The notes beneath the pieces are model-generated. The model did not search any database. It saw nothing but the letters and a program-made list of their open reading frames with translations, and was not told the origin of the DNA. A program made the translations under genes and the position numbers. A stretch of 41,117 bases of DNA from Verrucomicrobiales bacterium (lineage in GTDB: Bacteria; Verrucomicrobiota; Verrucomicrobiia; Verrucomicrobiales; DEV007). Below are positions 17,822-34,625 of this stretch, piece by piece. The number at the start of each line of letters is the position of its first letter. The stretch's first letter is position 1. The stretch covers positions 1-41,117 of the forward strand of contig JARGOP010000004.1 in assembly GCA_029233965.1 (NCBI GenBank), written 5' to 3'.

Positions 17822-19171
17822 TCAGGCGAAGAGTTCCTTGATAAGACGCCCGTTGTTGACCAGCTGGATGGGGCGGTTGTTGGTGTCGTGCATGATCGTG
17901 GTGGGATCGATGCCCATCTTCGTGTAGAGGGTGCTGGCGAAGTCTTCGGGCGCGTAGATGTTCTCATTCGCGTAGTAGCCCTTCACATCGGTGGCGCCGA
18001 CGATCTGGCCACCGGGGATGCCCGCTCCGGCCATGAGGACGCTCATGGCGAAGGACCAGTGGTCGCGCCCGGCGTCTTTATTGATCTTCGGAGTGCGGCC
18101 GAACTCACCGAGGAGCACGACCATGGTGTTCTCGAGGGTGCCGCGGTCGGCGAGATCCTGAATGAGGGCGCTGACGCCGGTGTCGACGCGTTCGGCTTTG
18201 TCTTTTTTGAAGTTCGCGAACAGGGTGCGATGATCGTCCCAGCCACCGCTGTACACGGTGACGAAAGGCACGCCGACCTCGGTGAGACGGCGGGCAAGGA
18301 GGAGACGCTGGCCGAAGTCATTGCGACCGTATTTTTCCCGGACGGCGTCGGGTTCGTGGGAGATATCGAAAGCTTTCTGGGCTTCGTCGGAGGTGACAAG
18401 ATCGAAGGCTCTCGCGTAATACTCGTCAAAGTCGATCGCGGGATCTTCGGCAGCGGCGTCGGTGATGCGGCGCATCTGATCGAGCGACTTGCGCAGCTCG
18501 ACGCGGGATTTGGCACGACCGTCCTCGAGCTCCGCCGGCAGGGTGACGTCACGGACGCGGAAGCTCTTGCTGTCCGGGTTGTCCGAGATCACGAAGGGAG
18601 CGTGCTGGGCACCGAGGAAGTTCGGTCCGCCCGAGCGCGACATGCGCGGGGTCGAGACGTAGGCGGGGAGCCCGTGCTTGACGGTCCGGGAATGACTCAC
18701 AACCGAGCCGAAGCTGGGGTGGAAGGTGACATAGGCCCCGCAGCCGACCGGGACCGGGGTGGGGCTGCCGGTCATGAGATAGTGGTTGCCGGCCCCGTGG
18801 TTGTTCTGCGCGTGGGCGATGGAGCGGACGACGGTGAATTGGTCGAAGCCTTTGGCGAGTTTGGGGAACTTGTCCGAAAAGTGCACCCCGGGAACAGTCG
18901 TGGGGACGGTGCCGAATTCGCCGCGGATCTCCGAGGGGGCATCGGGCTTGGGATCAAAAGTCTCGTAGTGCGACGGCCCGCCATCGAGCCAGATGAAGAT
19001 GCAGCGGGTGTTCGATTTTGAGAGCGACGATGCGCCCGGGGCAGCCGCAGCGGCATCGCGCAGACCGAGCATGCTGGTGAGACCGAGCCCGCCGAGAGCA
19101 CCCAGACCTGTCTGGATAAAATCCCGGCGGCCAACCCCTTCGCAGTTTCGCATTAATCGTTGATGGCTCAT
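17822..19171 (-). CDS. DUF1501 family protein, second copy
   Basis: The 449-residue protein carries a Tat-like leader (GRRDFIQTGLGALGGLG) and the family blocks CIFIWLDGGPSHYETFDPKP, FPKLAKGFDQFTVVRSIAH, HYLMTG, AYVSTPRMSRSGGPNFLG, EVGVPFVTVYSGGWDDH and VVLLGEFGRTPKINKDAGRD-HWSFAMSVLMAGAGIPGG. It belongs to the alkaline phosphatase/sulfatase-like fold but to a different subgroup from the copy at 7633, with which it shares only the common blocks. The start at 19171 precedes the leader by several residues; ATG 19153 is an alternative. It lies third in the WD40-PSD1-DUF1501-PPC operon, with a 125-base gap before it and 6 bases after it. Function unknown; probably a partner of the PSD1 protein. 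Confidence 0.92.
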   Translation of the reverse strand: MSHQRLMRNCEGVGRRDFIQTGLGALGGLGLTSMLGLRDAAAAAPGASSLSKSNTRCIFIWLDGGPSHYETFDPKPDAPSEIRGEFGTVPTTVPGVHFSDKFPKLAKGFDQFTVVRSIAHAQNNHGAGNHYLMTGSPTPVPVGCGAYVTFHPSFGSVVSHSRTVKHGLPAYVSTPRMSRSGGPNFLGAQHAPFVISDNPDSKSFRVRDVTLPAELEDGRAKSRVELRKSLDQMRRITDAAAEDPAIDFDEYYARAFDLVTSDEAQKAFDISHEPDAVREKYGRNDFGQRLLLARRLTEVGVPFVTVYSGGWDDHRTLFANFKKDKAERVDTGVSALIQDLADRGTLENTMVVLLGEFGRTPKINKDAGRDHWSFAMSVLMAGAGIPGGQIVGATDVKGYYANENIYAPEDFASTLYTKMGIDPTTIMHDTNNRPIQLVNNGRLIKELFA

Positions 19172-19296: not shown

Positions 19297-21492
19297 CTAG
19301 TGGTTCAAGACAAATTCGGCTGAGTTCAGGAGTGACCAGACGAGGTCCTCGAGGAGCGGCCTCACGGGAGCACCGGCGACGGCGGTGGCGAGATGGGCGC
19401 TGCCGATTTGCTTCTCGTTCTCCGAAGGCATTCGCGAGAAAAGGCGCAGGTAGATCTCGTCAATCGCCTCCGCCCCGGGCTTCTTCGCGAGTTCGTCGAG
19501 CCAGGGGCTCTTTCCGGAGAGCTTCTTCTGAAGGTTGTCCGAATTCATGAGGTGCAGGGCCTGAACAACGCTGCCGCCGGTCTCCCGCTCACAGGGCGGC
19601 GCGGCGCTGGAATCGGGACGGCCGAAGGCGTCGAGGAAGTCACTGGGAAGGAGGTGATTCCACTGCTGCATGGCCCGGGCGTCGGCAGGGAGACCGGTGA
19701 GCTTCTCGGGCTGGCCGGTGATGAGGGAGATGGAGTCGAGGAGAACTTCGCCGGGAAGGCGACGCCGGTAGCTGCGGGAAAAGTTGCGCTTATCCCCGAC
19801 GTTGTGCTCGTTCGGCTCGGAGCTCTGCTGGTAAAGCCGACTGTTGAGGATGAGACGAATCGTGTGCTTCTGGTCGAAGCCATGTTCGGCGAAATCCTTT
19901 GCGAGCCACTCGAGGAGGGGGGCGTTCGCCGGTGGATTGGAGTCGCGGAAATCATCGACCGGATCGACGAGACCTTTACCGAACAATTCGGCCCAGATGC
20001 GGTTGACCATGGCCCGGGCGAAGAAGGGGTTTTCCTTTGTCGTGATCCAGGTCGCAAAGACGGCCCGCGGGTCGGCATCCGGATCCATCTCAGTGAAATC
20101 CGGGGTATCGGGCGGCCTGGGTGTCATGACCGCCCCGCTCACGGGATGCGTCACCTTTCCCCCCGGCTCGAACCACCAGTACTCGGGCTCGCCGGAGATG
20201 GGGGCGGAGATGCCCTGCCCCTTTCGCTTCATCGATCCGAAAAAGGAGGCCATGGAGTAGTAGTCATCCTGGCTCCACTTTTCGGAAGGGTGGTGGTGGC
20301 ACTTGGCGCAGTTGAGCCGGACGCCGAGGAAAAGCTGGGCGATGAACTCGGCCATGTCGGCGGCCTCGCGCTTGTCACGGATGACGGCGACGGGGCCATA
20401 CTCGTGAGTGCTACCGCTGGCGGTGAGGAGCTCGGTCACGAAGACGTCCCAGGTCGTGTTGTCGCGGAATTTTTCACGGATCCACTGATCGAGGAGGTAG
20501 ACGGGCTTTACCCCGACGCGCTGAGTGTTGGGGCGCAGGAGGTCACCCCACTTCGTCGCCCAGAAGTCGGCGTAGTCGAAGCGATGCGTCGGCGAAAGGA
20601 GCCGGTCGGCGAGCTTGGCGCGTTTGTCAGGGCTGGTGTCGGCAAGGAAGGCGCGGGTTTCCCTGATCGAGGGGAGGCGCCCGAGGACATCGAGGGTGGC
20701 GCGGCGGAGGTATTCGTCGTCCCGGCTGGGGTCCGAGGGGAAAAGGCCGAGTTCCTCGAAGCGCGCGTAGGCAAGTTCATCGATGCGGTTGTTGCGCGGC
20801 AGCACGGTGTAGGTTTCGGGCGGGAGGAGCTTGTCGGGCGGGATGACGACCCGCACCGCCGCGACCTGCTCGATGTAGCGCACGATGATGCTGTTTTCCC
20901 CCGGGACACTGCCGGCGGTGATGTTGCCGTCGTGATCGACTTTGGCAAAGGCGGCGTCGTTCGAGGTGAATTCGCTGAGGTGGGTGACGTCGCGGGTCGT
21001 GCCGTCCGAATAAGAGACCGTCACCTGGATCGCCTTTGTCTCATTCTTTTTAAAAAACAGCTTGTCCGGGCTGATCGTGATGCCGGTCGGCTCCGGTTCG
21101 CCGGGGATGCGGCGCGGCGCTCCCTCGGCGATCCACTGTCGGAGGACTTTGTAAAACTCGGAGTCTTTCTCAAAACGCTTTTCGCCCTCGTGCGGGACCG
21201 CATTGGTCGCCTTGAGAAGGAGGAGCGATTGGTCGGGCGAGGCGGGGAAAATACGGCGCCCCCTCGCATCATAGACGATCTCGCGATAGTCCGAATCGGG
21301 ATTGAAGGAAAAGATCGAAAGCTGGAATCCGTTCTGCCCGTCCGCCTTCGCGTGGCAACTCCCGAGCATGCAGCCGGCCCGGGTCATGACGGGGAGAACG
21401 TCGTTCTCAAACGAGATGGTGGCGGGCGACGAGGCCTTGAGCGCGGGGCAGCCTAACAAAGACATAAGAAGGAGTGAGAGGAGCTTTTTCAT
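19297..21492 (-). CDS. PSD1-type protein (Big_2, DUF1549, DUF1553), second copy
   Basis: The 731-residue product has a signal peptide (MKKLLSLLLMSLLGCPALKA) and, unlike the first PSD1 protein, a CxxxxCH motif (CMLGSCH, 41-47) of the GCNxGxCHG subgroup in place of CxxCH. A bacterial Ig-like Big_2 domain follows (about 130-210, KAIQVTVSYSDGTTRDVTHL), then DUF1549 (RIDELAYARFEELGLFPSDP ... NCAKCHHHPSEKWSQDDYYS) and DUF1553 (FARAMVNRIWAELFGKGLVD ... SENEKQIGSAHL). It overlaps the WD40/cytochrome gene by one base (TGATG). The altered Cys spacing means that covalent haem attachment at the N-terminus is doubtful; the CAKCH motif remains. Probably an extracytoplasmic partner of the DUF1501 protein. 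Confidence 0.92.
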   Translation of the reverse strand: MKKLLSLLLMSLLGCPALKASSPATISFENDVLPVMTRAGCMLGSCHAKADGQNGFQLSIFSFNPDSDYREIVYDARGRRIFPASPDQSLLLLKATNAVPHEGEKRFEKDSEFYKVLRQWIAEGAPRRIPGEPEPTGITISPDKLFFKKNETKAIQVTVSYSDGTTRDVTHLSEFTSNDAAFAKVDHDGNITAGSVPGENSIIVRYIEQVAAVRVVIPPDKLLPPETYTVLPRNNRIDELAYARFEELGLFPSDPSRDDEYLRRATLDVLGRLPSIRETRAFLADTSPDKRAKLADRLLSPTHRFDYADFWATKWGDLLRPNTQRVGVKPVYLLDQWIREKFRDNTTWDVFVTELLTASGSTHEYGPVAVIRDKREAADMAEFIAQLFLGVRLNCAKCHHHPSEKWSQDDYYSMASFFGSMKRKGQGISAPISGEPEYWWFEPGGKVTHPVSGAVMTPRPPDTPDFTEMDPDADPRAVFATWITTKENPFFARAMVNRIWAELFGKGLVDPVDDFRDSNPPANAPLLEWLAKDFAEHGFDQKHTIRLILNSRLYQQSSEPNEHNVGDKRNFSRSYRRRLPGEVLLDSISLITGQPEKLTGLPADARAMQQWNHLLPSDFLDAFGRPDSSAAPPCERETGGSVVQALHLMNSDNLQKKLSGKSPWLDELAKKPGAEAIDEIYLRLFSRMPSENEKQIGSAHLATAVAGAPVRPLLEDLVWSLLNSAEFVLNH

Positions 21493-22940
21493 CAGGGGGT
21501 CCCGGCGACGGGAACGGGTGCATCGAGGGTGGACTTCAGCTTACCTTTGTCATCCCAGACGTAGAGTTTCCCATCCTCACCGCCGGCGTAGGACCAGAGG
21601 CTCTCCGGATCAAAGGCGAGGGCGAAGAGGGGCGTTGTGACTTTGTCGTAGGCACGTTCTTTTGCGCCGGTGGAGCGCTGCTCGCCCTCGTGCTCTTTCA
21701 AATCGGTGAAGGCGGAGGGCTTACCTGACTCGGGAACGGAGACGATCAGGTCGGTGTTGATCGCAGCCGCTTTCTCCTTGTCTTTTTCTTCGGCTTTCTT
21801 CTTCGCGTTGGCGGGGTCGATGAGCCAGGTGAGATCGTAGAGAGGGCCGGAGCGGCTACTCGCAAAGGAGCCGGTTTTCTTGCCGGTCGCGACATCCCAG
21901 ACCTTGATCTCCTCGTCGTCCCCTGCGGTGGCGATGCGCTCGCCTTCGGGGGAAAAGGCGGCGGTCATGACGTAGCCGGTGTGGCCCTCAAGCCGGGTGA
22001 CGATCTCGTGGCTGGCGGTGTCGCGTATCGAGATGAGCTTGTCGGCCGAGGTCGTGGCGTAACGCTTCCCATCGGCGCTGAGAGTGATTGAAAAGATGGA
22101 ATCGCGGTGCGCGGTGTCAAAGGTGACGACCTTTTCCGGGTCGAGGGTGATCTCGTGGAGCCGACCAAGCCGGGAGGGAATCGAGTCGGCGACGAGGATC
22201 CTTTTTCCATCGGGAAGGAAGCGCAGGGCGGTCTGCCGACCGAGGAAAGGCTCGCTGATCTCGCGCACCGCCTCGGCCGGGCTTGCGGGATCCCAGAAGC
22301 GGATGGAGCGAAAACCGCCCGAGACGAGCCGTTTCCCGTCGGGGGAAAAGGCGAGGGACTGCACCGCGTCGTTCTGGCCGGGTGAAGTGGCGGTGTGAAC
22401 GAGGGCCGGTTCCGTCCTGCCCGCTTCGCCCGGGGTGAGGCGATACCAGTCGATCATGCTGCCGCGTCCCACCGCGAGGAGGGTCCGGTCGGGCGAGAGG
22501 GCGACCGCGAGGATGGGCTGGTAGCTCTCGGGCAGGGTCCCGAGGACGACCTCTGTCTTCGCGGGCAGGTTCAGTTTGGCCCAGTGCCCTTCGTCCCATT
22601 CCGCTCCCTCGTTGACCCATTTTTCGAGAGCGGCGATCTCGCGGGGATCGAGCTGGCCCTTCGGCGGCATGTGGCTCCCGGCATCGGGGAAGAGAGTCTC
22701 AATGAGATAACTCTCAGACGCCTTTCCCGGGACGATCGCCGCATCGGTCTCACCGCCTTTCAGGAGCGATTCACGCGAGTCGATGATGAGCCCCCCTTTG
22801 CGCTTTGCCTCGGTGTGGCAGCTGACGCATTCCCGCTGCAGGATCGCAAGGGGGTCAGGCTCCGCCGAAGGCTCTGCCACGACCGGCACAAGAGCGCCGG
22901 CCCCCGCGAGCGCGAGGAGGAGACAGCAGGGAAATCGCAT
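21492..22940 (-). CDS. WD40-repeat protein with N-terminal PSCyt1 cytochrome domain
   Basis: The ATG at 22940 is chosen because it starts a signal peptide (MRFPCCLLLALAGAGALVPVVA). A haem-binding CVSCH (38-42) lies in a planctomycete cytochrome domain that ends with GSHMPPKGQLDPREIAALEK. The rest (about 145-480) is a WD40 beta-propeller with recurring blade ends such as VQSLAFSPDGKRLVSGGFRS, SITLSADGKRYATTSADKLI, MTAAFSPEGERIATAGDDEE-IKVWDVATGKKTG and LFALAFDPESLWSYAGGEDG. A Lys/Glu-rich insert (about 365-400) interrupts one blade. It opens the four-gene operon and is translationally coupled to the PSD1 gene. The likely role is a periplasmic scaffold that brings a c-type haem to its operon partners. 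Confidence 0.9.
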   Translation of the reverse strand: MRFPCCLLLALAGAGALVPVVAEPSAEPDPLAILQRECVSCHTEAKRKGGLIIDSRESLLKGGETDAAIVPGKASESYLIETLFPDAGSHMPPKGQLDPREIAALEKWVNEGAEWDEGHWAKLNLPAKTEVVLGTLPESYQPILAVALSPDRTLLAVGRGSMIDWYRLTPGEAGRTEPALVHTATSPGQNDAVQSLAFSPDGKRLVSGGFRSIRFWDPASPAEAVREISEPFLGRQTALRFLPDGKRILVADSIPSRLGRLHEITLDPEKVVTFDTAHRDSIFSITLSADGKRYATTSADKLISIRDTASHEIVTRLEGHTGYVMTAAFSPEGERIATAGDDEEIKVWDVATGKKTGSFASSRSGPLYDLTWLIDPANAKKKAEEKDKEKAAAINTDLIVSVPESGKPSAFTDLKEHEGEQRSTGAKERAYDKVTTPLFALAFDPESLWSYAGGEDGKLYVWDDKGKLKSTLDAPVPVAGTP

Positions 22941-23189
22941 AGGGCAATCATGCCTGCTTAAGTGCCTGATGGTCAAATGGCGCAAGCAAGTCGATCCAGA
23001 CCTTTTTTCCGGGGACCGTATCGGGGCAGCCACCTTCGTCGGACCGCTCCTGTTTTTCTTCACCAAAGTGCTCCCGCCGGAGACGGATACCGCGCTCGAC
23101 TGCTCCCCCTTCCCATGCGGGCCGATGCGCGGTAATGAAGGAACCGGGTTGAAAAAGTGAATTCATGGCAGTCATTCCCCCACTCTCTC
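22941..23189. other. Divergent promoter region: WD40 operon versus sulfatase/dgo operon
   Basis: The promoters of the two largest operons in the window must both lie in these 249 bases. A near-direct repeat (TGCCTG-N6-GTGCCTG) occurs at about 22950-22967. I see no reliable -35/-10 pairs and no regulator gene beside it. The sulfatase start also lacks a Shine-Dalgarno sequence. Confidence 0.35.
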
Positions 23190-24806
23190 ATGACTCTCCG
23201 GCTCTTCATCCCCCTCTACGTTCTCATTCTCACGGGCCTCTCCGCCTCTGCCGCCGGGAAGCCGAACATTCTCTACATCCTCGCCGATGACCTCGGCTTC
23301 AGTGACCTCGGCTGCTTCGGGGGCGAGATCAAAACACCGGTCCTCGACTCGCTCGCCGCCGGGGGCGTGCGTTTGACGCAGTTTTACAACACCGGTCGCT
23401 GCTGCCCCTCCCGCGCTGCGCTCCTCACCGGCCAGTATCCACACCGCGTCGGGCTCGGCCACATGACGACGAACGACCTCGGTCGTCCCGGCTATCGGGG
23501 CATCATCTCCGACGATGCGCAGACCATTGCCGGGACGCTTGCCCCGGCAGGCTATCGTTCCTTCATCGCAGGCAAGTGGCACCTCGGCACCGACGATCCG
23601 ACGAAACACGGATTTGAAGAATTCTACGGCACGCTCGTGAGCGCGAAGCGCTTCTTCGACCCCGACCATCTCATCCGCCTTCCTGAAGGACGTGAGGCAC
23701 GCCAGTATACCGAGGGGGAGTTTTACGCCACCGACGCCGTCACCGATCACGCGCTGGATTTCATTCATCTCGCCCGCGAGACGCCGGAGCAGCCCTGGTT
23801 TCTCTACCTCGCCTACCATGCCCCGCACTTCCCCCTCCACGCGCCGAAAGAGGAAATCGCCAAGTATGCCGACCGCTACCTCGGCGGTTGGGACAAGCTG
23901 CGCGAGGAACGCCTCGTCACGATGAAGAAACTCAAAATCGTGCCTGAGGAAACAAAACTCTCTCCCCGTTCCACCTGGCAGAACTACGGCGAGACTGAAA
24001 CCGGCACCAATCCCGCCTGGGACAGCCTGCCCGAAGACCGCCGCCTCGATCTCGCGCGCCGCATGGCGATCTACGCCGCGATGGTGGATCGCATGGATCA
24101 GCAACTCGGTCGCGTCATCGATGACCTCCGCCGCGCGGGCGAACTCGTCAATACCCTCATCGTTTTCACCTCCGACAACGGTGCCTGCTTCGAGTGGGAC
24201 CCCATGGGATTCGACATCGTTTCGAGCAATCAGAACATTCTCCACACCGCCGACCAACTCGACGAAATGGGGGCGCCGGGCACTTTCCACAGCGTCGGCT
24301 CCGGCTGGGCCAATGCCGGCAACACGCCCTGGCGGATGTACAAACACTTCAACCACGAAGGCGGCATCGCTTCCCCGGGAATCGTGCACTGGCCCGCCGG
24401 GCTGAACGTCGAACCCGGCTCGATCAACCATCACCCCGCTCATCTCATCGATCTGATGCCAACCGCGATCGCTGCAGCGGGCGGCACCTACACCGGGAAA
24501 CTGCCGCTGCCCGGCGTCGATCTCATCGCCCAACTCGAAAACGAAGGAGGCGATGAGCGCACCCTCTTCTTCGAGCATCAGGGCAACCGCGCGGTCCGCT
24601 CCGGTAAGTGGAAGCTCGTCGCCTTCGACGACCAAGCCTGGGAACTCTACAACTTCAGCAATGACCGCACCGAGCTGAACAATCTCGCCGCTCAGTATCC
24701 TGAAAAGGTCGAAGCCATGAACGCCGCCTGGGAAAAATGGGGCGCTGAAAACCAGGTCACCCCCCTCCCGGCCGATCTCGGAGTCAACTATCTCAAAGCC
24801 GATTAA
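23190..24806 (+). CDS. Secreted type I (arylsulfatase-like) sulfatase
   Basis: The ATG at 23190 begins a signal peptide (MTLRLFIPLYVLILTGLSASA); the open frame extends a few codons upstream without a better start. The 538-residue enzyme has the N-terminal metal site NILYILADDLGFSDLGCFGG, the formylglycine signature CCPSRAALLTG (Cys71, CxPSR), GKWHLG, FLYLAYHAPHFPLH, the calcium-site stretch VFTSDNGACFEW and a C-terminal domain with AVRSGKWKLVAFDDQAWELY. Type I sulfatases remove sulfate esters after their Cys is oxidised to formylglycine, so an FGE-type maturase must be encoded elsewhere. It starts the operon with the sugar-acid genes, only 10 bases before the next gene. This suggests a sulfated glycan or sulfated sugar as the source. 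The exact sulfatase subfamily is not resolved. Confidence 0.95.
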   Translation: MTLRLFIPLYVLILTGLSASAAGKPNILYILADDLGFSDLGCFGGEIKTPVLDSLAAGGVRLTQFYNTGRCCPSRAALLTGQYPHRVGLGHMTTNDLGRPGYRGIISDDAQTIAGTLAPAGYRSFIAGKWHLGTDDPTKHGFEEFYGTLVSAKRFFDPDHLIRLPEGREARQYTEGEFYATDAVTDHALDFIHLARETPEQPWFLYLAYHAPHFPLHAPKEEIAKYADRYLGGWDKLREERLVTMKKLKIVPEETKLSPRSTWQNYGETETGTNPAWDSLPEDRRLDLARRMAIYAAMVDRMDQQLGRVIDDLRRAGELVNTLIVFTSDNGACFEWDPMGFDIVSSNQNILHTADQLDEMGAPGTFHSVGSGWANAGNTPWRMYKHFNHEGGIASPGIVHWPAGLNVEPGSINHHPAHLIDLMPTAIAAAGGTYTGKLPLPGVDLIAQLENEGGDERTLFFEHQGNRAVRSGKWKLVAFDDQAWELYNFSNDRTELNNLAAQYPEKVEAMNAAWEKWGAENQVTPLPADLGVNYLKAD

Positions 24807-24816
24807 CCCCACCTCC

Positions 24817-25707
24817 ATGCTCCAAGGAATCTTCCCCGTCATCCCCACGCTCTTCACCGACGACAACGCGCTCGATCTCGAGGCGCAGCGTCAGGTCGTT
24901 CAGTTCGCCCTCAAGGCCGGCTCTCATGGCGTCGTCTTTCCCGGCGTCGCCAGTGAGTACGATTTTCTCACCCCTGAGGAACGCGGCACCCTCATCGCCC
25001 TCGTCGCCGAAGAGGTGGGTGGCCGCATCCCCATCGTCGGCGGTGCCAGCGCCGCGACCGCGGAGGAAGTGATCGTCGCCGGAGAGCAGGCCGCCGCCAG
25101 CGGCATCCATCATTTGATGATCATGGCACCCAATGGACTCGGCAAAGACCTCGAGGCTCATCGCGCCTTCTTCGCCGAAATCGCCGGGGCCCTGCCCGGG
25201 GCTGAGATCATTCTCCAAAACGCACCGACGCCCATCGGAGCCGGGCTCGACGCGGCCGCGATCGCCAACCTCGCGGCCGGGAATCCCTCGATCACCTACA
25301 TCAAAGAAGAGACGCTTCCCTCCGGCCCTGCCATCACCGCTCTGCTGGCCGGAGACATCCCGCATTTGAAAGCGGTCTTTGGAGGCGGGGGCGCGCGCTA
25401 CATCATCGACGAACTTGAGCGCGGCGCACGGGGGGCCATGCCTGCCGTTGAGTTCGCCGACCTCCACGTCGCGATTTGGAATGCCCATGAAGCCGGCGAC
25501 CACGAAGGCGCCCGGAAATTGTATCGCCTCAGTCTCCCCCTTCTTGTCGCGCAGGCGATTTATCGCATGCGCTTCACGAAGTATGTTCTGAGCCGACGCC
25601 AAATCGCCGACGCCCTGACTGTCCGCGCGCCGATTGTCGAGCTGGATGATTTCGCGAGGCGCGACATCGACCAAATGCTCGAGGACCTCCAGGCCGACTT
25701 TCCATGA
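24817..25707 (+). CDS. DHDPS/N-acetylneuraminate lyase family aldolase, atypical
   Basis: The 296-residue TIM-barrel protein begins GIFPVIPTLFTDDNALDLEA and keeps the Schiff-base lysine (K163 in ITYIKEET). The family motif GTTGE is GVASE (43-47) and the catalytic Tyr of the YNxP motif is Gln (Q134 in LQNAPTP). Dihydrodipicolinate synthase itself needs both, so this is not a lysine-biosynthesis enzyme. Relatives with such changes act as aldolases or dehydratases on 2-keto-3-deoxy or other keto acids. It ends with ATGA overlap into the enolase-superfamily gene, so it belongs to the sugar-acid pathway. The probable role is cleavage or dehydration of a deoxy keto sugar acid; the substrate is unknown. 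Confidence 0.85.
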   Translation: MLQGIFPVIPTLFTDDNALDLEAQRQVVQFALKAGSHGVVFPGVASEYDFLTPEERGTLIALVAEEVGGRIPIVGGASAATAEEVIVAGEQAAASGIHHLMIMAPNGLGKDLEAHRAFFAEIAGALPGAEIILQNAPTPIGAGLDAAAIANLAAGNPSITYIKEETLPSGPAITALLAGDIPHLKAVFGGGGARYIIDELERGARGAMPAVEFADLHVAIWNAHEAGDHEGARKLYRLSLPLLVAQAIYRMRFTKYVLSRRQIADALTVRAPIVELDDFARRDIDQMLEDLQADFP

Positions 25708-26894
25708 GCAGCCCCGACTCACAGGACCGGGTCTCGGAGATCCAGATCTACCTCGTCGATCTGAGTCAGGATGAGCCCTACCTCGGCGCCCTGCGTGAGG
25801 GCGAGGCCGTCAACGAAGCGGGCTACTTTGTGCGCAAAGGAAACCGCACCGTGTATCCGCGGAAGAACCGATCCTTGGTCGTCAAGATCGTGACCCGCGA
25901 CGGCGTGACCGGCTGGGGTGAAACCTACGGGCTCGTTGCCCCGCTCGCCACCGCCGCGATCATTTCCGATCTCCTCACCGGTTTCGTCGTCGGCCGCGAT
26001 CCGAACGAGGTCGAAGCGATCCATGACGACCTCTACGACCTCATGCGCGTGCGGGGTTACACCGGCGGCTTTTACCTCGATGCCCTCGCCGCCATCGACA
26101 TCGCCCTCTGGGACGTCGTCGGAAAAATCCAAAACCTGCCCCTCTATGAGATCCTCGGCTCACCGCGGCGCAGCCTCATTCCCGCCTACGTCTCCGGCCT
26201 TCCCCGGCCCACCCTCGCCGGGCGTTTGGAGCTGGCCAGAGAATGGCAAAGCCTCGGCTTCAATGCCTTCAAGTTCGCCCTCCCCGTCGCCGATGAGGGT
26301 GCCCTCGCCGAACTTAGCGCCCTCCGCCTCACCCTCGGTGATGACGCCCGAATCGCCGTGGACCTCCATTGGTCGCTGACCGAAGACGCCGCCGTCCAAC
26401 TCGCGGCGGATCTCCAGCCCTTCGACCCCTGGTTTCTCGAAGCGCCGGTCCCCACCGAGGAAATCGGCACCCTCCGCCGCGTCGTCCAACGCACGGCAGC
26501 CTGCATCGCCGTCGGTGAAGAATGGCGCACCCACTTCGACGCCCGGCTCCGCCTCGAGCGTCTCGCTTGCCACATCGTCCAGCCGGAGATGGGGCACACC
26601 GGCATCACCCAGTTTCTCCGCATCGCCCGTCTTGCCGAGACCTACCGGATCTCAGTAATCCCGCACGCCACGATCGGCTCCGGGATTTTCCTGGCTGCCA
26701 GCCTTCACGCCGGCGCCGTCCTCACGGAGGTCGAGTCCCACGAATTTCAGCATTCGATCTTCGGCGCCTTCCGTCACTTCACGGGCGATGCCCTGCGCTG
26801 TGAAGCCGGCGCCTACTCCCTCCCCGATGGCCCCGGCCTCGGCGTCGAACCCTCCGACGCCATGCTCGCCCGGATGACCCGAATGCTGCCATGA
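25704..26894 (+). CDS. Enolase-superfamily (mandelate racemase/muconate lactonizing) sugar-acid dehydratase or cycloisomerase
   Basis: The 396-residue protein has the capping domain (VKIVTRDGVTGWGETYGLVA) and a barrel with the metal ligands in order: D220 in AVDLHW, E246 in FLEAPVP and E272 in VGEEWR. H222 (DxH, as in D-galactonate dehydratase) and H321 (VIPHATIGSG) are possible acid/base residues, and K190 is in FNAFKFALP. This layout fits an acid-sugar dehydratase making a 2-keto-3-deoxy acid, which is what the downstream kinase and aldolase need. An alternative is a 3,6-anhydrogalactonate cycloisomerase, also an enolase-superfamily enzyme feeding the same intermediate from agar or carrageenan; the neighbouring sulfatase makes this attractive. 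It overlaps both neighbours by ATGA. Confidence 0.88.
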   Translation: MSSPDSQDRVSEIQIYLVDLSQDEPYLGALREGEAVNEAGYFVRKGNRTVYPRKNRSLVVKIVTRDGVTGWGETYGLVAPLATAAIISDLLTGFVVGRDPNEVEAIHDDLYDLMRVRGYTGGFYLDALAAIDIALWDVVGKIQNLPLYEILGSPRRSLIPAYVSGLPRPTLAGRLELAREWQSLGFNAFKFALPVADEGALAELSALRLTLGDDARIAVDLHWSLTEDAAVQLAADLQPFDPWFLEAPVPTEEIGTLRRVVQRTAACIAVGEEWRTHFDARLRLERLACHIVQPEMGHTGITQFLRIARLAETYRISVIPHATIGSGIFLAASLHAGAVLTEVESHEFQHSIFGAFRHFTGDALRCEAGAYSLPDGPGLGVEPSDAMLARMTRMLP

Positions 26895-28576
26895 CCGCCC
26901 CCGACTACATCACCCTGCTGCTCTATGTCGTCGGTCTCTTCGTCATCAGTACGCTCTCGGCGCGACGCACCTCCAACCACAAGGAGATGTTCTCCGCCGG
27001 GCGCAGCTCCCCCTGGTGGGCTTCCGGATTGAGCGGTTTCATGACGATGTTTTCCGCCGGCACCTTCGTCGTGTGGGGCGGCATCGCCTACGAGCATGGA
27101 TTCGTCGCCGTGGCCATCAACACCTGCTACGGCATCGCCGCCCTCCTCGCCGGATATCTCGTTGCGGGAAAATGGAACACGCTGGGCGTCGCGACACCGG
27201 CCGAGTTCGTTCAGCTCCGCTTCGGCACGACCGGCCTGCATTTCTTCACCTGGGCGATGCTCATCAAACGCATCCTCGGCGTCTCCGTCTCGCTCTACGC
27301 CCTCGCGGTGCTGCTTGTCGCTCTCGTGCCGCTCGACCTCACCGTCGCCATCATTCTCTTCGGCACCATCGTCGTGCTCTATACCATGCAGGGTGGCCTC
27401 TGGGCCGTGCTCATGACCGACGTGCTGCAGTTCATCGTCCTCACCGTGGTGGTATTCATGGTCGCCGTGCTCATGATCTCCGGCATGGATTTCGACGGCT
27501 TCGCCGAACGGGTCCCCTCGCACTTCTTCGATCCTGTTACCGCCAAGTACGGCTGGTTCTTCCTCGCCGGTTGGGTCACGATCAACTTCTTCATCATCGG
27601 CGCCGAGTGGGCCTTCGTGCAACGCTACCTCTCCGTCCGCAGTCCGCGCGATGCCAAGAAGTCCGCCTACCTCTTCGGCGTCATGTATCTCGTGACCCCG
27701 CTTTTCTGGATGCTGCCGCCGCTCCTCTATCGCGGCCAGGTCGAAGGCGTCGACAAGGAGCAGGCCTACATCCTCGCTTCGCAATCCGTCCTCCCACCCG
27801 GCATGCTCGGCCTCATGTTCGCCGCCATGTTTTCCGCCACCGCGAGCATGGTCAGCTCCCAGCTCAATGTCTTCGCCGGAGTCCTCACGAACGATTTCTA
27901 CCGCCCCTTCTTCAATTCTAAAGCGAACGAATCCACCCTCGTCAGAACCGGGCGCGTCTTCACCGCTCTCCTCGGCGCGCTCCTCGTCATCACCGCGATT
28001 CTCGTGCCGCGGCTGGGCGGCGCGGAGAAACTCATCATCTCGATCAATTCCCTTCTCGTCGTTCCTCTTTTCGCCCCGACTCTCTGGGGACTCTTCAGCC
28101 GCAAGATTGGCATTCGCGACATGATCATCGTCGCCCTCACGAGCTTCTTCGTTGGCTTGTCCCTGCGCTTCGGAATCGCCGCCAACCCCTGGATAACTGA
28201 AGGCAACGCCCTCTGGCCAATGGCCTCCTTTCTCTCAAAGCACACGCAGAATGTCGAAGTCATCATCGGCGTCCTCCTCCCCATCGCCATGCTCATCGCC
28301 TTCGAATGGCGAAAACACGGCGTCGATCCCGGCTCGGTCCGCGTCGACAAGCATGGCGCCGATACCCGCGCTCCCGAAGAATCCCAAACCCGCCTCTTTG
28401 ATCCTTTCGCCGCGCGCATGGTGATGTTCAGTCTCCTCATCCTCGGCGCATGGATTCTGATCCTTGGTTTCACCGTGACCGCCGAGCGCAACCTGCTCCT
28501 CGGTTTCGGCAGCGTCCTCATGCTTTCCGCCGCCGTCCTCCAACGCCTGATCTCCAGACTTACCCAGCCCTCGTAA
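26891..28576 (+). CDS. Sodium:solute symporter (SSS family)
   Basis: The 561-residue, strongly hydrophobic protein has about 13 predicted membrane helices. Family features include the first helix YITLLLYVVGLFVISTL, the early MFSAGRSSPWWASGLSGFMT loop that carries sodium-site residues in SSS transporters, and AAMFSATASMVSSQLNVFAG in the middle, then a cytoplasmic segment (KHGVDPGSVRVDKHGADTRA) before the last two helices. Overlap with the enolase-superfamily gene (ATGA) and a 13-base gap before the aldolase gene place it in the operon. It presumably takes up the sugar acid or desulfated sugar produced outside. The substrate is inferred from context only. Confidence 0.93.
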   Translation: MTAPDYITLLLYVVGLFVISTLSARRTSNHKEMFSAGRSSPWWASGLSGFMTMFSAGTFVVWGGIAYEHGFVAVAINTCYGIAALLAGYLVAGKWNTLGVATPAEFVQLRFGTTGLHFFTWAMLIKRILGVSVSLYALAVLLVALVPLDLTVAIILFGTIVVLYTMQGGLWAVLMTDVLQFIVLTVVVFMVAVLMISGMDFDGFAERVPSHFFDPVTAKYGWFFLAGWVTINFFIIGAEWAFVQRYLSVRSPRDAKKSAYLFGVMYLVTPLFWMLPPLLYRGQVEGVDKEQAYILASQSVLPPGMLGLMFAAMFSATASMVSSQLNVFAGVLTNDFYRPFFNSKANESTLVRTGRVFTALLGALLVITAILVPRLGGAEKLIISINSLLVVPLFAPTLWGLFSRKIGIRDMIIVALTSFFVGLSLRFGIAANPWITEGNALWPMASFLSKHTQNVEVIIGVLLPIAMLIAFEWRKHGVDPGSVRVDKHGADTRAPEESQTRLFDPFAARMVMFSLLILGAWILILGFTVTAERNLLLGFGSVLMLSAAVLQRLISRLTQPS

Positions 28577-28589
28577 ATCCAAAACCGCC

Positions 28590-29237
28590 ATGGATGCCGC
28601 CCTCCAACAACAAATCGAACGCGCCGGGGTCATCGCCGTCGTCACGGTGGAGTCCGTCGACGCCGCCCTCCCGCTCGCCCGCGCCCTCCTCGACGGCGGC
28701 GTGACCGCGATTGAACTGACGCTTCGCACCGAAGCCGCCATGACCGTCCTGGAAAAACTCTGCGCCGAGGTGCCCGAATTACTCATCGGCGCCGGAACCG
28801 TCCTCACGCCGCAGCAGGTCACCCGGGTCAAAGCCGCCGGCGCTGCCTTCGCCGTGGCACCGGGGATGAATCGCCGCGTCGTCGAAGCCGCCCAAGCCGC
28901 GGAACTGCCCTTCGCGCCCGGCATCTGCACTCCCAGCGAGATCGAAGCCGCACTCGAACTCGACTGCCGCTGCCTCAAATTTTTCCCCTCCGAACCCCTT
29001 GGCGGCCTGCGCTATCTGAAGACCATGGCGACCCCCTACGCGCACCTCGGACTCCGCTTCATCCCGCTCGGCGGGGTCTCCCCCGACAACGCCGCCAGCT
29101 ACCTGACCGAACGTACCGTTCTCGCCCTCGGCGGATCCTGGGTCGCTCCGGCGGACGCGATTCGCGCCGGCGATTGGACCGGCATCACCCAACGCGCCCG
29201 TGAGGCGATGGAAATTGTCCAGGCAACACGCGCATGA
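28590..29237 (+). CDS. dgoA: 2-dehydro-3-deoxy-6-phosphogalactonate (KDPGal/KDPG-type) aldolase
   Basis: The 215-residue TIM barrel shows the KDPG-aldolase family pattern: VIAVVTVESVDAALPLARAL, the acid/base glutamate E42 in AIELTLRT, IGAGTVLTPQQVTRVKAAGA, PFAPGICTPSEIEAALEL and the Schiff-base lysine K130 in CLKFFPSEPLGG. It splits a 2-keto-3-deoxy-6-phospho sugar acid into pyruvate and glyceraldehyde 3-phosphate in the cytoplasm. Because the next gene encodes 2-dehydro-3-deoxygalactonokinase, the galacto-configured substrate is more likely than the gluco one. ATGA overlap with that kinase gene indicates coupling. KDPG-specific or dual-specificity forms cannot be separated by eye. Confidence 0.9.
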   Translation: MDAALQQQIERAGVIAVVTVESVDAALPLARALLDGGVTAIELTLRTEAAMTVLEKLCAEVPELLIGAGTVLTPQQVTRVKAAGAAFAVAPGMNRRVVEAAQAAELPFAPGICTPSEIEAALELDCRCLKFFPSEPLGGLRYLKTMATPYAHLGLRFIPLGGVSPDNAASYLTERTVLALGGSWVAPADAIRAGDWTGITQRAREAMEIVQATRA

Positions 29238-30136
29238 GCACCGACCCCATCGCCTGGATCGCCGCCGACTGGGGCACCTCGAACCTCCGTTGCTGCGCCA
29301 TGTCCGCCGACCATCGCGTCGTCGACCGCGCCGAATCGGGCCGCGGGATGCAAGCCATCTCCACGGGCGGCGGTGACTTCGAAGCCGCGCTCCTTGAACT
29401 GATCCAACGCTGGCTCCGTCCCGGCGAAACCATTCCCATCTCCGCCTGCGGCATGGTCGGTGCCAAACAGGGCTGGATCGAGGTGCCCTACGTCACCGCT
29501 CCCTGCTCCCCCGGCACCCCCACGCATCGCGCCCCGACGCGCAGTGCCCAGATTTCGGTTTCCATCCACGCCGGAGTGAGGCAAAACGATCCCGCCGATG
29601 TCATGCGGGGCGAGGAAACTCAAATCGCCGGGCTCCTCGCGCTCCAACCCGGCTTCGAAGGCCTCGTCGGCCTCCCCGGCACCCACACAAAATGGGCGAC
29701 CCTCGCCGACGGAAAGATCCAGTCCTTCCAAACTTTCATGACCGGCGAAGCCTTCGCCCTCCTCTCCCAACACTCCGTCCTTCGTCTCACCCTCGCTCCC
29801 GAAAGCTGGGACGAAACCGCCTTCCTCGAGGGCATCCACCGTTCCCTCGCCTCTCCGGCCGACCTCCTTTCCCACGCCTTCCGCCTCCGCGCTGAATCCC
29901 TCCTCAACGGACTTGACGGCACCGCCGCCCGCTCCCGACTCTCCGGTCTCCTCATCGGACAGGAACTCGCGGCAGTCCGTCCCTCCGGCCACGTCAGCCT
30001 TATCGGAGCCGGGGCCCTCACCCGTCCCTATCAAACCGCTCTTGAGGCTCTCGGCATCAAGGCCACCCTCGTGGACTCCGAAGCTGCCACGATCGCAGGC
30101 CTCGCGGTCGCGCACCTGAGCAGTGACGGAGGCTGA
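29234..30136 (+). CDS. dgoK: 2-dehydro-3-deoxygalactonokinase
   Basis: The 300-residue protein matches DgoK motifs in order: the phosphate-binding AADWGTSNLRCC (11-21), ACGMVGAKQGWIEVPY (71-86), DVMRGEETQIAG, GLPGTHTKWATL (147-158), the FMTGEAFALLSQ segment and a C-terminal nucleotide-fold region (LIGAGALTRPYQTALEALGI). The enzyme phosphorylates 2-keto-3-deoxygalactonate with ATP to give the substrate of the aldolase encoded just upstream. It is the last gene of the operon, and the hairpin at 30229-30247 follows. Together with the aldolase it defines the lower De Ley-Doudoroff pathway. Confidence 0.93.
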   Translation: MSTDPIAWIAADWGTSNLRCCAMSADHRVVDRAESGRGMQAISTGGGDFEAALLELIQRWLRPGETIPISACGMVGAKQGWIEVPYVTAPCSPGTPTHRAPTRSAQISVSIHAGVRQNDPADVMRGEETQIAGLLALQPGFEGLVGLPGTHTKWATLADGKIQSFQTFMTGEAFALLSQHSVLRLTLAPESWDETAFLEGIHRSLASPADLLSHAFRLRAESLLNGLDGTAARSRLSGLLIGQELAAVRPSGHVSLIGAGALTRPYQTALEALGIKATLVDSEAATIAGLAVAHLSSDGG

Positions 30137-32090: not shown

Positions 32091-34583
32091 TCACTTCGGC
32101 AACGGACGATGCAGAGTCGAGATCAAGGCGTCTGCGATCGCGGCCATTCCGGCATCTCCGGGATGATTCGCTACTCCGGCGTGTTGAAAAGGCCGTTCAG
32201 ACCGGGCAAAGTTGCTTTCGTCTTTGCTCAGTTTACTGATGTCGACAAAAGTCCCGCCGACCGAATCACAAGCCAGTTTCAACGCTTCGTCTTTGGCGGG
32301 ATTTGCCCAGAAGCAACTGCGGACGAGAATGGTCGGATTCCGATCCGCCTTCAGTTTTTTCAGCAACTGAGTGACACTTTTTTGAAACGTCTCCTGATCC
32401 TCCGCGGTTTTCAAGGCGGGAACATTTTCGCCAATCGCGACGATGACTAAGTCAGCCTGAAAATCGAAGGCGTCTTTCAGTTTGCCTTGAATGTCATACC
32501 CGGCATGACCCCGTTCGAAGTCAGCAATATTTTTCACGAGGGTATCGGGCGCGCTGCCTGATGGTGCGGTGAGCGCCTCCGTGACGAGATGCACGTAGTC
32601 CCTGGATTCCGCGCTTGCTGCCATGCCCCAGTTCCCTGCCCAGTCGATCTCTGCTTTGGGGCCATGTTTCGTGATGCTGTTTCCGAGGAAAAGCACTTTC
32701 CGATAGGCGGCCTGTTGTGCCGGTTGGCTCACGACCCAGTCCCAACGTTCCCCTGCAGTCTCAAGCTGAGATGCGAGGTTCTCTTCACTCAGGTAACGCT
32801 GCCGAATGAGGGCCTCGAGAACCTCTTTCACTTTCCTGAGATAAGCCTCTTTCGAGGTATACCGTGTCTCGATGGAGGGTCGTGGATCCTTCGTTTTCTC
32901 CCGCTGAGATTCCGTCACAGCAAAGGGAATCCAGGCCCCGCGCAGCAGAACCAGTTCATGCGGAGATCCCATGGAGTCGGGGCGAAAGACCCAGCCTGTA
33001 GCCGTTCCCAGCGGGACCGCGACCCCGGGCATACGGATGCCGGCGATGTCATTCCCATCGTCATCCACTTGCGGGACGAGGAGCGGGAGCTCAGCACCCT
33101 CTCCGGCACCATCAGGCCACTGCGGATTGCGGACACGGCCTCCAGCCTTGAGGGCATTTGGCTGCGACATGCCGGGGATATCCGGAAACTTCACCCCGGC
33201 GACCGGAACCAGAGTGCCGTCTTTGAATTTCGGATAGGCACTCGGCGGGGGTGCAATCCCTTCACTCACCCAGCGATGCATCGCCAGGCGGAGTGCGGTG
33301 ATGACATCGTTGCCATTCACGGGGTTTGCCATCGGAGCACCCGCGACCAGTGAAGTGGGAGGAAATGACGAGGGACCGTGTTGTGTCCCCGCGAGGAAGT
33401 AGGACCGGACATTCTCCGGAAACTCCACGTCCTTCGTTCCCGCAGGATCGGTGTGAGTGAGGGCGGCAACCCTTCCCGCGCCCCAATACTCGGCGGCGGT
33501 TGTGGTATAGAAAACTTTGGGCGGATGTTTCACGCGCGGATTTTCAAGAACTCCCTCCGTGTGATTGCTGACGGGATCCGTCATTGCTGTATCGGCAAAC
33601 GGGAAGGAAGTCGTGTAGAATCCGGCCACCCCGCGCGGGGTCGACCAGCGCTGATTCAAGACGAGGCGTCCCGCTCCCGCAATGTGGGCCATGACTCCGT
33701 CGAGCACCTGCCTGCCCTCCTCATCGGTATTGAATCCGAGATACATAAAGTCGCGCAGAAACCGCCCGCACTGCGATGACCCGAAGGCGTAGGCATGATC
33801 AACCGGAGCGGGCGAATCTGAACCATGCTTCAGCCAGGACACGGCATCGCGAATCGCGGCATAGCCGAGGCCTGCGATCGGTGGGGCTTCGGCCAGGTAA
33901 AAAATCTCGTAGTTTTTCCCTGCTTCAAAACCGCCCTGGAGACGGATCTGATTGTCTTCCCAACTCCATTGCTCCCGCGGTACCTCGGTCCCTTCGGGAA
34001 AGGCAGCGCGTGTTCGCACAATCAGGCGGCTCTCCGGTCCGTCCATGTCCACCGGCGGGTAGTCTGCCAAATCGGTGAGCATTTGCCGGTCTGTCGTTTT
34101 CGCGGGGGTAAAGTTTGCCCTCACCACTCCACGAATCGGGGTGCCGTCAGGGTTCTGAGCGGACGGCACTTCGATCCGCATTTTGTCATCCTGCTCCGGC
34201 ACATCAAATTCCCAGCCGACGTTCAGAACGGTGAAGCCGTTTTCTGTGACCCAGTCGGCAAGTCTTGCCTTGCCGCCACGATTTGGAATCTCGACCCAGG
34301 CAGCACCGTTGCTTTGCTTCGCATCCTTCGGTTTTAAAATACGAAGATCCGAGGAAAAACTCACCTTACCCGCTGTATTTTCCGGAGCGAGTTCGACATC
34401 TGCGATGATGGCGTTTTCAGGCCGTGCCGGATCGATTTCGAAATGCAAATGACCAACGATTTCTTCATACCCCGACGCCCCGACATCTTTACGCTCAGAA
34501 ACTTCCACGCGCACAACCCCGGCGCTGGCGACCGTGGAGAGACACAAAAAAAAGAGGAAGAGACGGAAACGTGAAAAAATCAT
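32091..34583 (-). CDS. Secreted Abhydrolase_10-type hydrolase fused to SGNH/GDSL domain
   Basis: The ATG at 34583 begins the signal peptide MIFSRFRLFLFFLCLSTVASA; the frame extends 12 codons further only with a TTG start. The first about 600 residues match 'alpha/beta hydrolase domain' proteins: AWVEIPNRGGKARLADWVTE, FEAGKNYEIFYLAEAPPIAG, the nucleophile region AYAFGSSQCGRFLRDFMYLG (about 262-281), VKHPPKVFYTTTAAEYWGAG and SYFLAGTQHGPSSFP. The C-terminal about 210 residues form an SGNH esterase with KVLFLGNSITKHGPK (Ser about 633), the ADLVIVAIGENV block and the closing HAGVANHPGDAGM. SGNH enzymes remove acyl or acetyl groups from glycans. The two hydrolase domains in one chain suggest a polysaccharide-modifying bifunctional esterase; this is inference. 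Confidence 0.85.
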   Translation of the reverse strand: MIFSRFRLFLFFLCLSTVASAGVVRVEVSERKDVGASGYEEIVGHLHFEIDPARPENAIIADVELAPENTAGKVSFSSDLRILKPKDAKQSNGAAWVEIPNRGGKARLADWVTENGFTVLNVGWEFDVPEQDDKMRIEVPSAQNPDGTPIRGVVRANFTPAKTTDRQMLTDLADYPPVDMDGPESRLIVRTRAAFPEGTEVPREQWSWEDNQIRLQGGFEAGKNYEIFYLAEAPPIAGLGYAAIRDAVSWLKHGSDSPAPVDHAYAFGSSQCGRFLRDFMYLGFNTDEEGRQVLDGVMAHIAGAGRLVLNQRWSTPRGVAGFYTTSFPFADTAMTDPVSNHTEGVLENPRVKHPPKVFYTTTAAEYWGAGRVAALTHTDPAGTKDVEFPENVRSYFLAGTQHGPSSFPPTSLVAGAPMANPVNGNDVITALRLAMHRWVSEGIAPPPSAYPKFKDGTLVPVAGVKFPDIPGMSQPNALKAGGRVRNPQWPDGAGEGAELPLLVPQVDDDGNDIAGIRMPGVAVPLGTATGWVFRPDSMGSPHELVLLRGAWIPFAVTESQREKTKDPRPSIETRYTSKEAYLRKVKEVLEALIRQRYLSEENLASQLETAGERWDWVVSQPAQQAAYRKVLFLGNSITKHGPKAEIDWAGNWGMAASAESRDYVHLVTEALTAPSGSAPDTLVKNIADFERGHAGYDIQGKLKDAFDFQADLVIVAIGENVPALKTAEDQETFQKSVTQLLKKLKADRNPTILVRSCFWANPAKDEALKLACDSVGGTFVDISKLSKDESNFARSERPFQHAGVANHPGDAGMAAIADALISTLHRPLPK

Positions 34584-34625
34584 TGGAGGGCAATAACTGA
34601 GCGGAAATTCCTTTCTCAAGTCCGC

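Follow-up and report, generated by a model that had tools for sequence, protein, structure and literature searches.

The stretch of DNA analysed here (the window) comprises 41,117 bases at the start of contig JARGOP010000004.1 from a Verrucomicrobiales bacterium (assembly GCA_029233965.1), the genome of which is 4.83 Mb in size and 96% complete. Six colinear genes on its + strand, running from a sulfatase to a homologue of the 2-keto-3-deoxygalactonate (KDGal) kinase DgoK (23157 or 23190 to 30136), form an operon that on balance appears to degrade a galactonate-type hexonic acid from a sulfated, galactose-containing glycan. The direction of flow that we infer would begin with the exported sulfatase stripping sulfate outside the cytoplasm, and an SSF sodium:solute symporter is presumed to import the sugar or its acid. 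Oxidation enzymes encoded elsewhere would form the aldonate, which would undergo C2-C3 dehydration by an enolase-superfamily enzyme employing a DgoD-like acid/base pair (His222 as acid, His321 as base) and a metal held by Asp220, Glu246 and Glu272. The product would be KDGal or a substituted form of it; DgoK would phosphorylate KDGal, and an Eda-type aldolase would cleave the phosphate to pyruvate and glyceraldehyde 3-phosphate. A DHDPS-family partner would form a Schiff base with a 2-keto acid through Lys163 and, because it lacks the aldolase Tyr and possesses Glu165, would most likely handle protons and a leaving group at C3-C4 instead of catalysing a simple retro-aldol cleavage. Candidate substrates are D-galactonate, its epimer at C2 and substituted galactonates, for which a red-algal galactan is one possible source.

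The six genes and the probable KDGal branch

All six gene products score over their Pfam cut-offs, which bears out the position, strand and number of genes given in a first-pass annotation made by a model from the letters of the window. The exported S1-type sulfatase (23190, ATG, to 24806, with an alternative GTG start at 23157; PF00884, 198 bits) is followed by a DHDPS/NAL-family Schiff-base enzyme of the Gln134/Lys163/Glu165 type (24817-25707; PF00701 (DHDPS), 87.7 bits), an MR/MLE enolase-superfamily enzyme of the 2nql/2ppg family that is probably an acid-sugar dehydratase (25704-26894; PF13378 (MR_MLE_C), 154.4 bits, and PF02746), the SSF symporter (26891-28576; PF00474, 119.8 bits), an Eda-type KDPG/KHG aldolase (28590-29237; PF01081, 210.3 bits) and DgoK (29234-30136; PF05035, 313 bits against a cut-off of 25). 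The same annotation described the genes as joined mostly by ATGA overlaps, the sulfatase included. Overlaps of this type, 4 bp in length, are found at three of the five junctions (25704-25707, 26891-26894 and 29234-29237), but the sulfatase is separated from the DHDPS-family gene by a gap of 10 bp, and the symporter from the aldolase by one of 13 bp. A scan for promoter- and terminator-like sites returned a count no higher than in shuffled sequence. The reported absence of a sugar dehydrogenase holds for the families tried: neither E. coli AldA nor the SDR and SGL lactonase of related loci has a match in the window at 1e-6, other dehydrogenase and lactonase families not having been tested.

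Related loci were gathered by a scan of one genome per species, and 80 of 186 confirmed stretches were kept, each given an L number. Counts refer to the 62 of these in which the dehydratase open reading frame scores at least 250 bits; among the 18 left out, L070 (split frame) and L072 (cut) resemble family members, and 16 are distant homologues. The hosts of the family comprise Verrucomicrobiota, Lentisphaerota, Planctomycetota, Bacteroidota (Zobellia and Algibacter), many Alphaproteobacteria, one Betaproteobacterium and, in the Gammaproteobacteria, Colwellia, Thalassotalea, Agaribacter and Granulosicoccus. Within a sample of 387 genomes from the phylum of the window, the enolase-superfamily enzyme has five matches at 1e-60 including its own, one of which is just 34% identical.

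The kinase is 35% identical to E. coli DgoK over 292 columns. DgoK is present in 24 of the 62 related loci, and in six (L012, L027, L029, L033, L044 and L054) it is accompanied by a DgoA-type aldolase with 42-46% identity to E. coli DgoA. That these genes recur in both Lentisphaerota and Alphaproteobacteria provides the strongest argument for KDGal as the likely hub of the pathway, and agrees with the initial description of an exported sulfatase beside a De Ley-Doudoroff-type route ending in DgoK. Together with the residue pattern described below, these neighbours would narrow the substrate to a galactonate-type acid. The window aldolase had been labelled KDPGal-type, but proves to be Eda-type instead: it exceeds the cut-off of the TIGR01182 eda model (226.9 bits against 156.05), falls below that of the PRK09140 phosphogalactonate aldolase model (99.9 bits against 207), and is 30% identical to E. 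coli DgoA. In 24 of the 62 loci an SSF homologue follows the dehydratase within 400 bp.

The operon resembles E. coli dgoRKADT in its DgoK homologue, its KDPG-type aldolase and an MR/MLE dehydratase whose Asp-x-His and His positions coincide with those of DgoD. It departs from that system in that its dehydratase falls in another clade, its aldolase is of the Eda type, an SSF symporter replaces DgoT, no regulator is present, and a DHDPS-family gene and a sulfatase are added. The coupling of desulfation to De Ley-Doudoroff chemistry is not new, as Pseudoalteromonas carrageenan loci (PUL 7/CarPUL) have been described as containing sulfatases and genes for galactonate dehydratase, lactonase, SDR and KDGal kinase and aldolase, and a junction with the anhydrogalactose route at KDGal has been proposed (PMC6262041, PMC6923384). 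According to these descriptions the Pseudoalteromonas loci also carry dauA-D, whereas the window operon is without a cycloisomerase, contains no dehydrogenase or lactonase matched in the families tested, and has the DHDPS-family partner as an extra component.

The enolase-superfamily enzyme and its Schiff-base partner

In 59 of the 62 related loci the DHDPS-family gene and the dehydratase gene abut each other in the same orientation, a recurrence greater than expected by chance. The exceptions are L030 and L042, where the two are on opposite strands approximately 6 kb apart, and L065, which a contig end truncates. For L059 and L061, identity to the window protein falls to 26-29% in the adjoining copy, and a homologue with 44-46% identity is found about 8 kb downstream. 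The pair is thus kept together almost invariably in distant bacteria, and the structures of one member have been solved under generic names. No joint reaction for the two enzymes was found in the open-access literature; solving it would annotate the pathway in both rhizobia and sulfatase-rich bacteria.

The best solved relatives of the enolase-superfamily enzyme are 2nql/4dn1 (490 bits) and 2ppg/4h1z (464-465 bits), with which it shares a family, the matches being near full length (residues 10-393 for 2nql and 7-385 for 2ppg). The molecules are named 'Isomerase/lactonizing enzyme', 'Putative isomerase' and 'Enolase'. Matches to the D-cycloisomerase DauB (5olc, 131 bits) and the L-cycloisomerase ACI (5xd7, 87 bits) are weaker. 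The placement in a family acting on unrelated acids that the first-pass annotation named as a refutation was not found either, as the closest relatives yielded no assigned substrate. A tree of 45 rows, including 26 of the 63 family rows, three of DauB and two of ACI, joins the family in one clade (support 100/100, stem 1.86) that is separate from those of DauB, ACI and DgoD.

Despite this position outside the DgoD clade, and an identity of 29.6% to E. coli DgoD, the catalytic positions of that enzyme can be recognised in the family. Asp183, His185, His285 and Asp258 of DgoD align with Asp220, His222, His321 and Glu295 in the window; in DgoD, His185 and His285 are the acid and the base respectively. 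Asp220 is conserved in 63 of 63 rows and His222 in 60, the replacements being Leu in L030 and L042 and Gln in L057, while His321 and Glu295 are each conserved in 62 of 62, one row being cut. Arg44, Asn47 and Tyr51 belong to an N-terminal loop that the family likewise conserves. The genome of Zobellia barbeyronii contains a member of the family and, elsewhere, orthologues of DauB (828 bits to 5olc) and ACI (622 bits to 5xd7), in addition to a 3rr1-type galactonate-dehydratase homologue (502 bits). Judged from its sequence, the window enzyme is most likely an aldonate dehydratase of a fourth kind beside DauB, ACI and the galactonate-dehydratase paralogue.

The active site of the DHDPS-family partner is similarly constant. 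The Schiff-base residue Lys163 and Glu165 are each conserved in 61 of 61 sequences, and the position of the aldolase Tyr (YagE Tyr145) is occupied by Gln134 in 60, the remaining one having Arg in L017, which is cut by a contig end. The catalytic pair of YagE-type aldolases is Lys174 and Tyr145 (PMC9795676). Gln134, Lys163 and Glu165 are in register with Gln143, Lys171 and Glu173 of the Azospirillum brasilense L-2-keto-3-deoxyarabonate (L-KDA) dehydratase, in which, by the account of a review, Gln143 replaces the Tyr, Glu173 is not conserved in other members, and the activity is confined to dehydration, aldol cleavage being absent (PMC9795676). However, Glu200, the second catalytic base of the L-KDA dehydratase, corresponds to Gly192 in the window and to Gly in 61 of 61 sequences, and in the window operon the accompanying enzyme is of the hexonate-kinase type and not a semialdehyde dehydrogenase.

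A structure predicted from an input of 44 DHDPS rows (pLDDT 95.5) matches 7c0c and 7c0d best (7c0c: Z 39.4, 1.9 Å over 290 residues, 27% identity). Ordinary DHDPS chains lie within 1 Z of this match, hence the fold alone does not decide between the types. By sequence, the best solved relatives are again L-KDA dehydratases (83.9 bits). The partner, earlier called a DHDPS-like lyase, does belong to the DHDPS family, but in the absence of the catalytic Tyr is unlikely to be an ordinary aldolase; the aligned residues suggest that it is probably a Schiff-base enzyme acting at C3-C4, neither a plain aldolase nor simply the arabonate enzyme.

Competing routes

Several observations weigh against a galactonate dehydratase supplied from a sulfated galactan. 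In the tree the family shares a side with the cycloisomerases and not with DgoD (95/94), and it is outside the DgoD clade itself; the NCBIfam galactonate dehydratase model gives 173.2 bits, short of its cut-off of 311. No assigned substrate for the 2nql/4dn1/2ppg/4h1z family was found in the titles and abstracts of the open-access literature. Two of the three rows lacking His222 are from Colwelliaceae, where the context is galactan-like. No DgoK is seen in 38 of the 62 related loci, in which the DHDPS enzyme may therefore be the true next step. The host has one galactokinase-family match, so that free D-galactose may not need the operon route, and only one GH16 match. The GH16 protein of the Colwellia echini locus considered below is remote from enzymes of solved structure, scoring 47.3 bits to a kappa-carrageenase and 46.7 bits to a beta-1,3-glucanase. 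Finally, three sulfatase queries detected no homologue in the alphaproteobacterial loci except L060, which implies that sulfate lies outside the core pathway.

Among the alternatives, a non-phosphorylative route survives best, while still seeming improbable. The DHDPS-family enzyme would here be a 2-keto-3-deoxy-aldonate aldolase releasing pyruvate and glyceraldehyde, with DgoK and the Eda-type aldolase forming an accessory branch. This would suit the tighter association of the dehydratase gene with the DHDPS-family gene (59 of 62 loci) than with DgoK (24 of 62), as well as the rarity of an AldA-like dehydrogenase able to finish another product, which is near the pair in only two of the 62 loci (18 of the 60 negatives having less than 3 kb of flank on a side). 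Both phosphorylative and non-phosphorylative routes have been reported for KDGal (PMC11219438). The substitution of Gln for the catalytic Tyr nevertheless weakens the case for an ordinary KDGal aldolase of the YagE type, as does the restriction of the Gln143/Glu173 type to dehydration in the published account (PMC9795676).

Somewhat more doubtful is a double dehydration resembling the Weimberg pathway, in which the DHDPS-family protein would act as an L-KDA-dehydratase type of enzyme, its 2,5-dioxo acid product would be oxidised elsewhere, the substrate might be a pentonate or other acid, and DgoK would serve a side branch. The conserved Gln/Lys/Glu set and the closeness of the L-KDA dehydratases in sequence and, subject to the near tie with ordinary DHDPS, in fold are consistent with such a role. 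The pentonate form is weakened by the invariant Gly in place of Glu200 and by the rarity of AldA-type dehydrogenases, and the six loci combining DgoK with a DgoA-type aldolase are hard to explain for a pentonate.

Returning to catabolism of a galactonate-type acid, one speculative and rather unlikely role for the DHDPS-family enzyme is between the dehydratase and DgoK. Following formation of the Schiff base, Glu165 would take the C3 proton, the C4 substituent (a hydroxyl, a sulfate or a 1,4-linked sugar) would be expelled, and water would re-add to give KDGal. Re-addition of water, rather than a 2,5-dioxo product, would be expected in this case because Glu200 of the arabonate enzyme is replaced by Gly. 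If correct, the pair would constitute a cytoplasmic oxidation-elimination route that clears or epimerises position 4 of galactonates, in bacteria ranging from rhizobia to degraders of algal polysaccharides.

The first-pass annotation proposed a different source of KDGal, in which the enolase-superfamily enzyme would supply DgoK as a 3,6-anhydro-galactonate cycloisomerase. The dauA-dauB-dauC-dauD system of Zobellia galactanivorans exemplifies such a route. There, an MR/MLE enzyme likewise feeds a KDGal kinase and aldolase, and the genes for all three are described as lying with S1 sulfatases (PMC5698469). The shared side of the tree (95/94) also links the window family to the cycloisomerases. 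The predicted general base of AtGCI and DauB is Lys166, the second position of a K-x-K motif (PMC5698469); the corresponding position, Ala192 in the window, which maps to K166 of the DauB orthologue L096, is Ala in 61 and Pro in two of the 63 family rows, refuting the simple form of this proposal. No AldA-like dehydrogenase, the superfamily to which we take DauA to belong, was matched in the window or in 60 of the 62 loci. With the long-stemmed separate clade, the missing Lys and the co-occurrence of a family member with a true DauB and a true ACI in one Zobellia genome, identity with Zobellia DauB is ruled out and a cycloisomerase route of any form is very improbable. Furthermore, Zobellia DauB and ACI match the window enzyme as a query at 2e-36 and 2e-25, yet the sole match in the host at 1e-10 is the enzyme itself, so that the host genome as assembled contains no recognisable anhydrogalactonate cycloisomerase. 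Overall, the initial observation is partly confirmed and its interpretation partly supported. Catabolism of the L-fucose type was set aside, as DgoK recurs in 24 of the 62 loci and would need a 6-hydroxyl.

Sulfatases, neighbourhoods and flanking genes

The window sulfatase has an intact CCPSR formylglycine motif (C-x-P-S-R) which, with the PF00884 match, places it in class S1, and translation from the ATG at 23190 gives an N-terminus that by eye is hydrophobic and signal-like. The nearest solved relatives are 7all (352 bits) and the arylsulfatase 1hdh (284 bits), both of which we take to be members of subfamily S1_4; 7all may be BT4683. Endo-activity on 3-O-sulfo-galactose has been reported for the S1_4 enzyme BT4683 (PMC10154612). 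Sulfatase-domain matches in the host genome number at least 154, approximately 3.5% of its genes at an assumed density of 900 genes per Mb, and a sulfatase beside any operon is consequently a weak clue alone. The link to this operon is supported by L011, the nearest relative, in which a sulfatase 79% identical to that of the window occupies the same position. Homologues are present in 16 of the 62 loci, the next best after L011 being 40% identical (L041), and in L012 the aldolase gene overlaps at its end with a sulfatase gene whose product is just 26% identical. As nearby sulfatases are of several kinds, the idea that a single sulfatase marks a single polysaccharide was rejected.

In Colwellia echini (L042:2572-14549) the dehydratase gene is clustered with genes for a separate SGL lactonase, an SDR, an SSF symporter, a GH16 protein and two sulfatases. 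One of the sulfatases, encoded 2 kb beyond the dehydratase on its downstream side, reaches 673.7 bits against the exo-4S-kappa-carrageenan sulfatase 6prm; its gene, the GH16 gene and the dehydratase gene all fall within 12 kb, which, like the Zobellia locus described below, suggests a galactan link among the relatives. The four other members of the cluster to which this sulfatase belongs are just 27-36% identical to it, so that closeness to the kappa-carrageenan enzyme can be claimed for the Colwellia protein alone. The open reading frame at L042:1633-2418, considered by eye to encode an IclR regulator, was dropped since Pfam gave no family at 1e-6. In Zobellia barbeyronii the pair is surrounded by two GH2 proteins, a GH97, a GH43-like protein and sulfatases.

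The neighbourhoods of the Agrobacterium-type relatives differ from the window, with its sulfatase and SSF symporter. In the alphaproteobacterial clusters the DHDPS-dehydratase pair is followed by a binding-protein ABC transporter, an NAD-epimerase-like protein, a fusion of an IclR regulator to SGL and an SDR, identities that rest on gene clustering and Pfam analysis of one representative each. In the representative fusion (L051:17350-19104) Pfam identifies an IclR regulator joined to an SGL/gluconolactonase domain, and 24 loci including L051 have copies aligning over at least 546 residues. The SDR of C. echini is 64% identical to that of Thalassotalea and 48-54% identical to those of 15 loci, 14 of them alphaproteobacterial and one from Granulosicoccus. 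The accompaniment of the pair by an SDR and an SGL lactonase makes sugar, lactone, aldonate and dehydratase the natural order in the proteobacterial groups.

In L024 (7712-9013) the pair is preceded by a second MR/MLE protein, with a start that by eye resembles a twin-arginine signal. A second MR/MLE protein occupies the same position in L026, L032, L036, L038, L040, L041, L045, L047, L056 and L073; these proteins are approximately 27-31% identical to the window enzyme, often preceded by a protein of about 1,090 residues, of which the L026 copy has no Pfam match at 1e-8.

In the planctomycete-like group within the family, co-directional genes for PSCyt/PSD cytochrome-like and DUF1552 or DUF1501 proteins are found just upstream of the DHDPS-family gene in L012, L013, L014, L016, L019 and L021, as assigned by Pfam for L012, L014, L021 and one protein each of L016 and L019, and by homology for the rest. 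A WD40 protein intervenes in L021, and in L012, from a Lentisphaeraceae host, a protein with a 3-keto-disaccharide hydrolase domain (L012:8240-8947) directly precedes the DHDPS gene. On the - strand of the window, divergent from the sulfatase, are genes for a DUF1501 protein (17822-19171), a DUF1549/DUF1553 protein (19297-21492) and a WD40/PSCyt1 protein (21492-23066), the last approximately 0.1 kb from the sulfatase; in L011 a PSCyt/DUF-type pair is downstream.

The frequency of these modules was considered in the nine loci of this group with at least about 5 kb of upstream sequence (L011, L012, L014, L016, L019, L021, L066, L072 and the window; L013 was excluded as a near copy of L014). PSCyt/DUF genes are within approximately 6 kb in seven of the nine, and directly upstream and co-directional in five. 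Such genes are common in the host, which has 18 DUF1552 and at least 51 DUF1501 matches. The tail probability for seven of nine is 3e-4 to 0.01 at an assumed chance of 0.2-0.35, and five of nine at a chance of 1.5-3% is far less likely, both calculations being post hoc and ignoring kinship. Among short-flank loci outside the sample, L018 has the pair downstream, in the opposite orientation; L015, L017 and L020 showed none. As the planctomycete-like group is without the SDR and lactonase pair, the PSCyt/DUF1501-DUF1552 genes are a possible extracytoplasmic oxidation module; if the C4-elimination described above is correct, sugar oxidation in this group would come from them. Downstream of the operon, the - strand of the window (32091-34619) encodes an Abhydrolase_10 domain fused to a GDSL-lipase-like C-terminus, the latter scoring below its Pfam cut-off.

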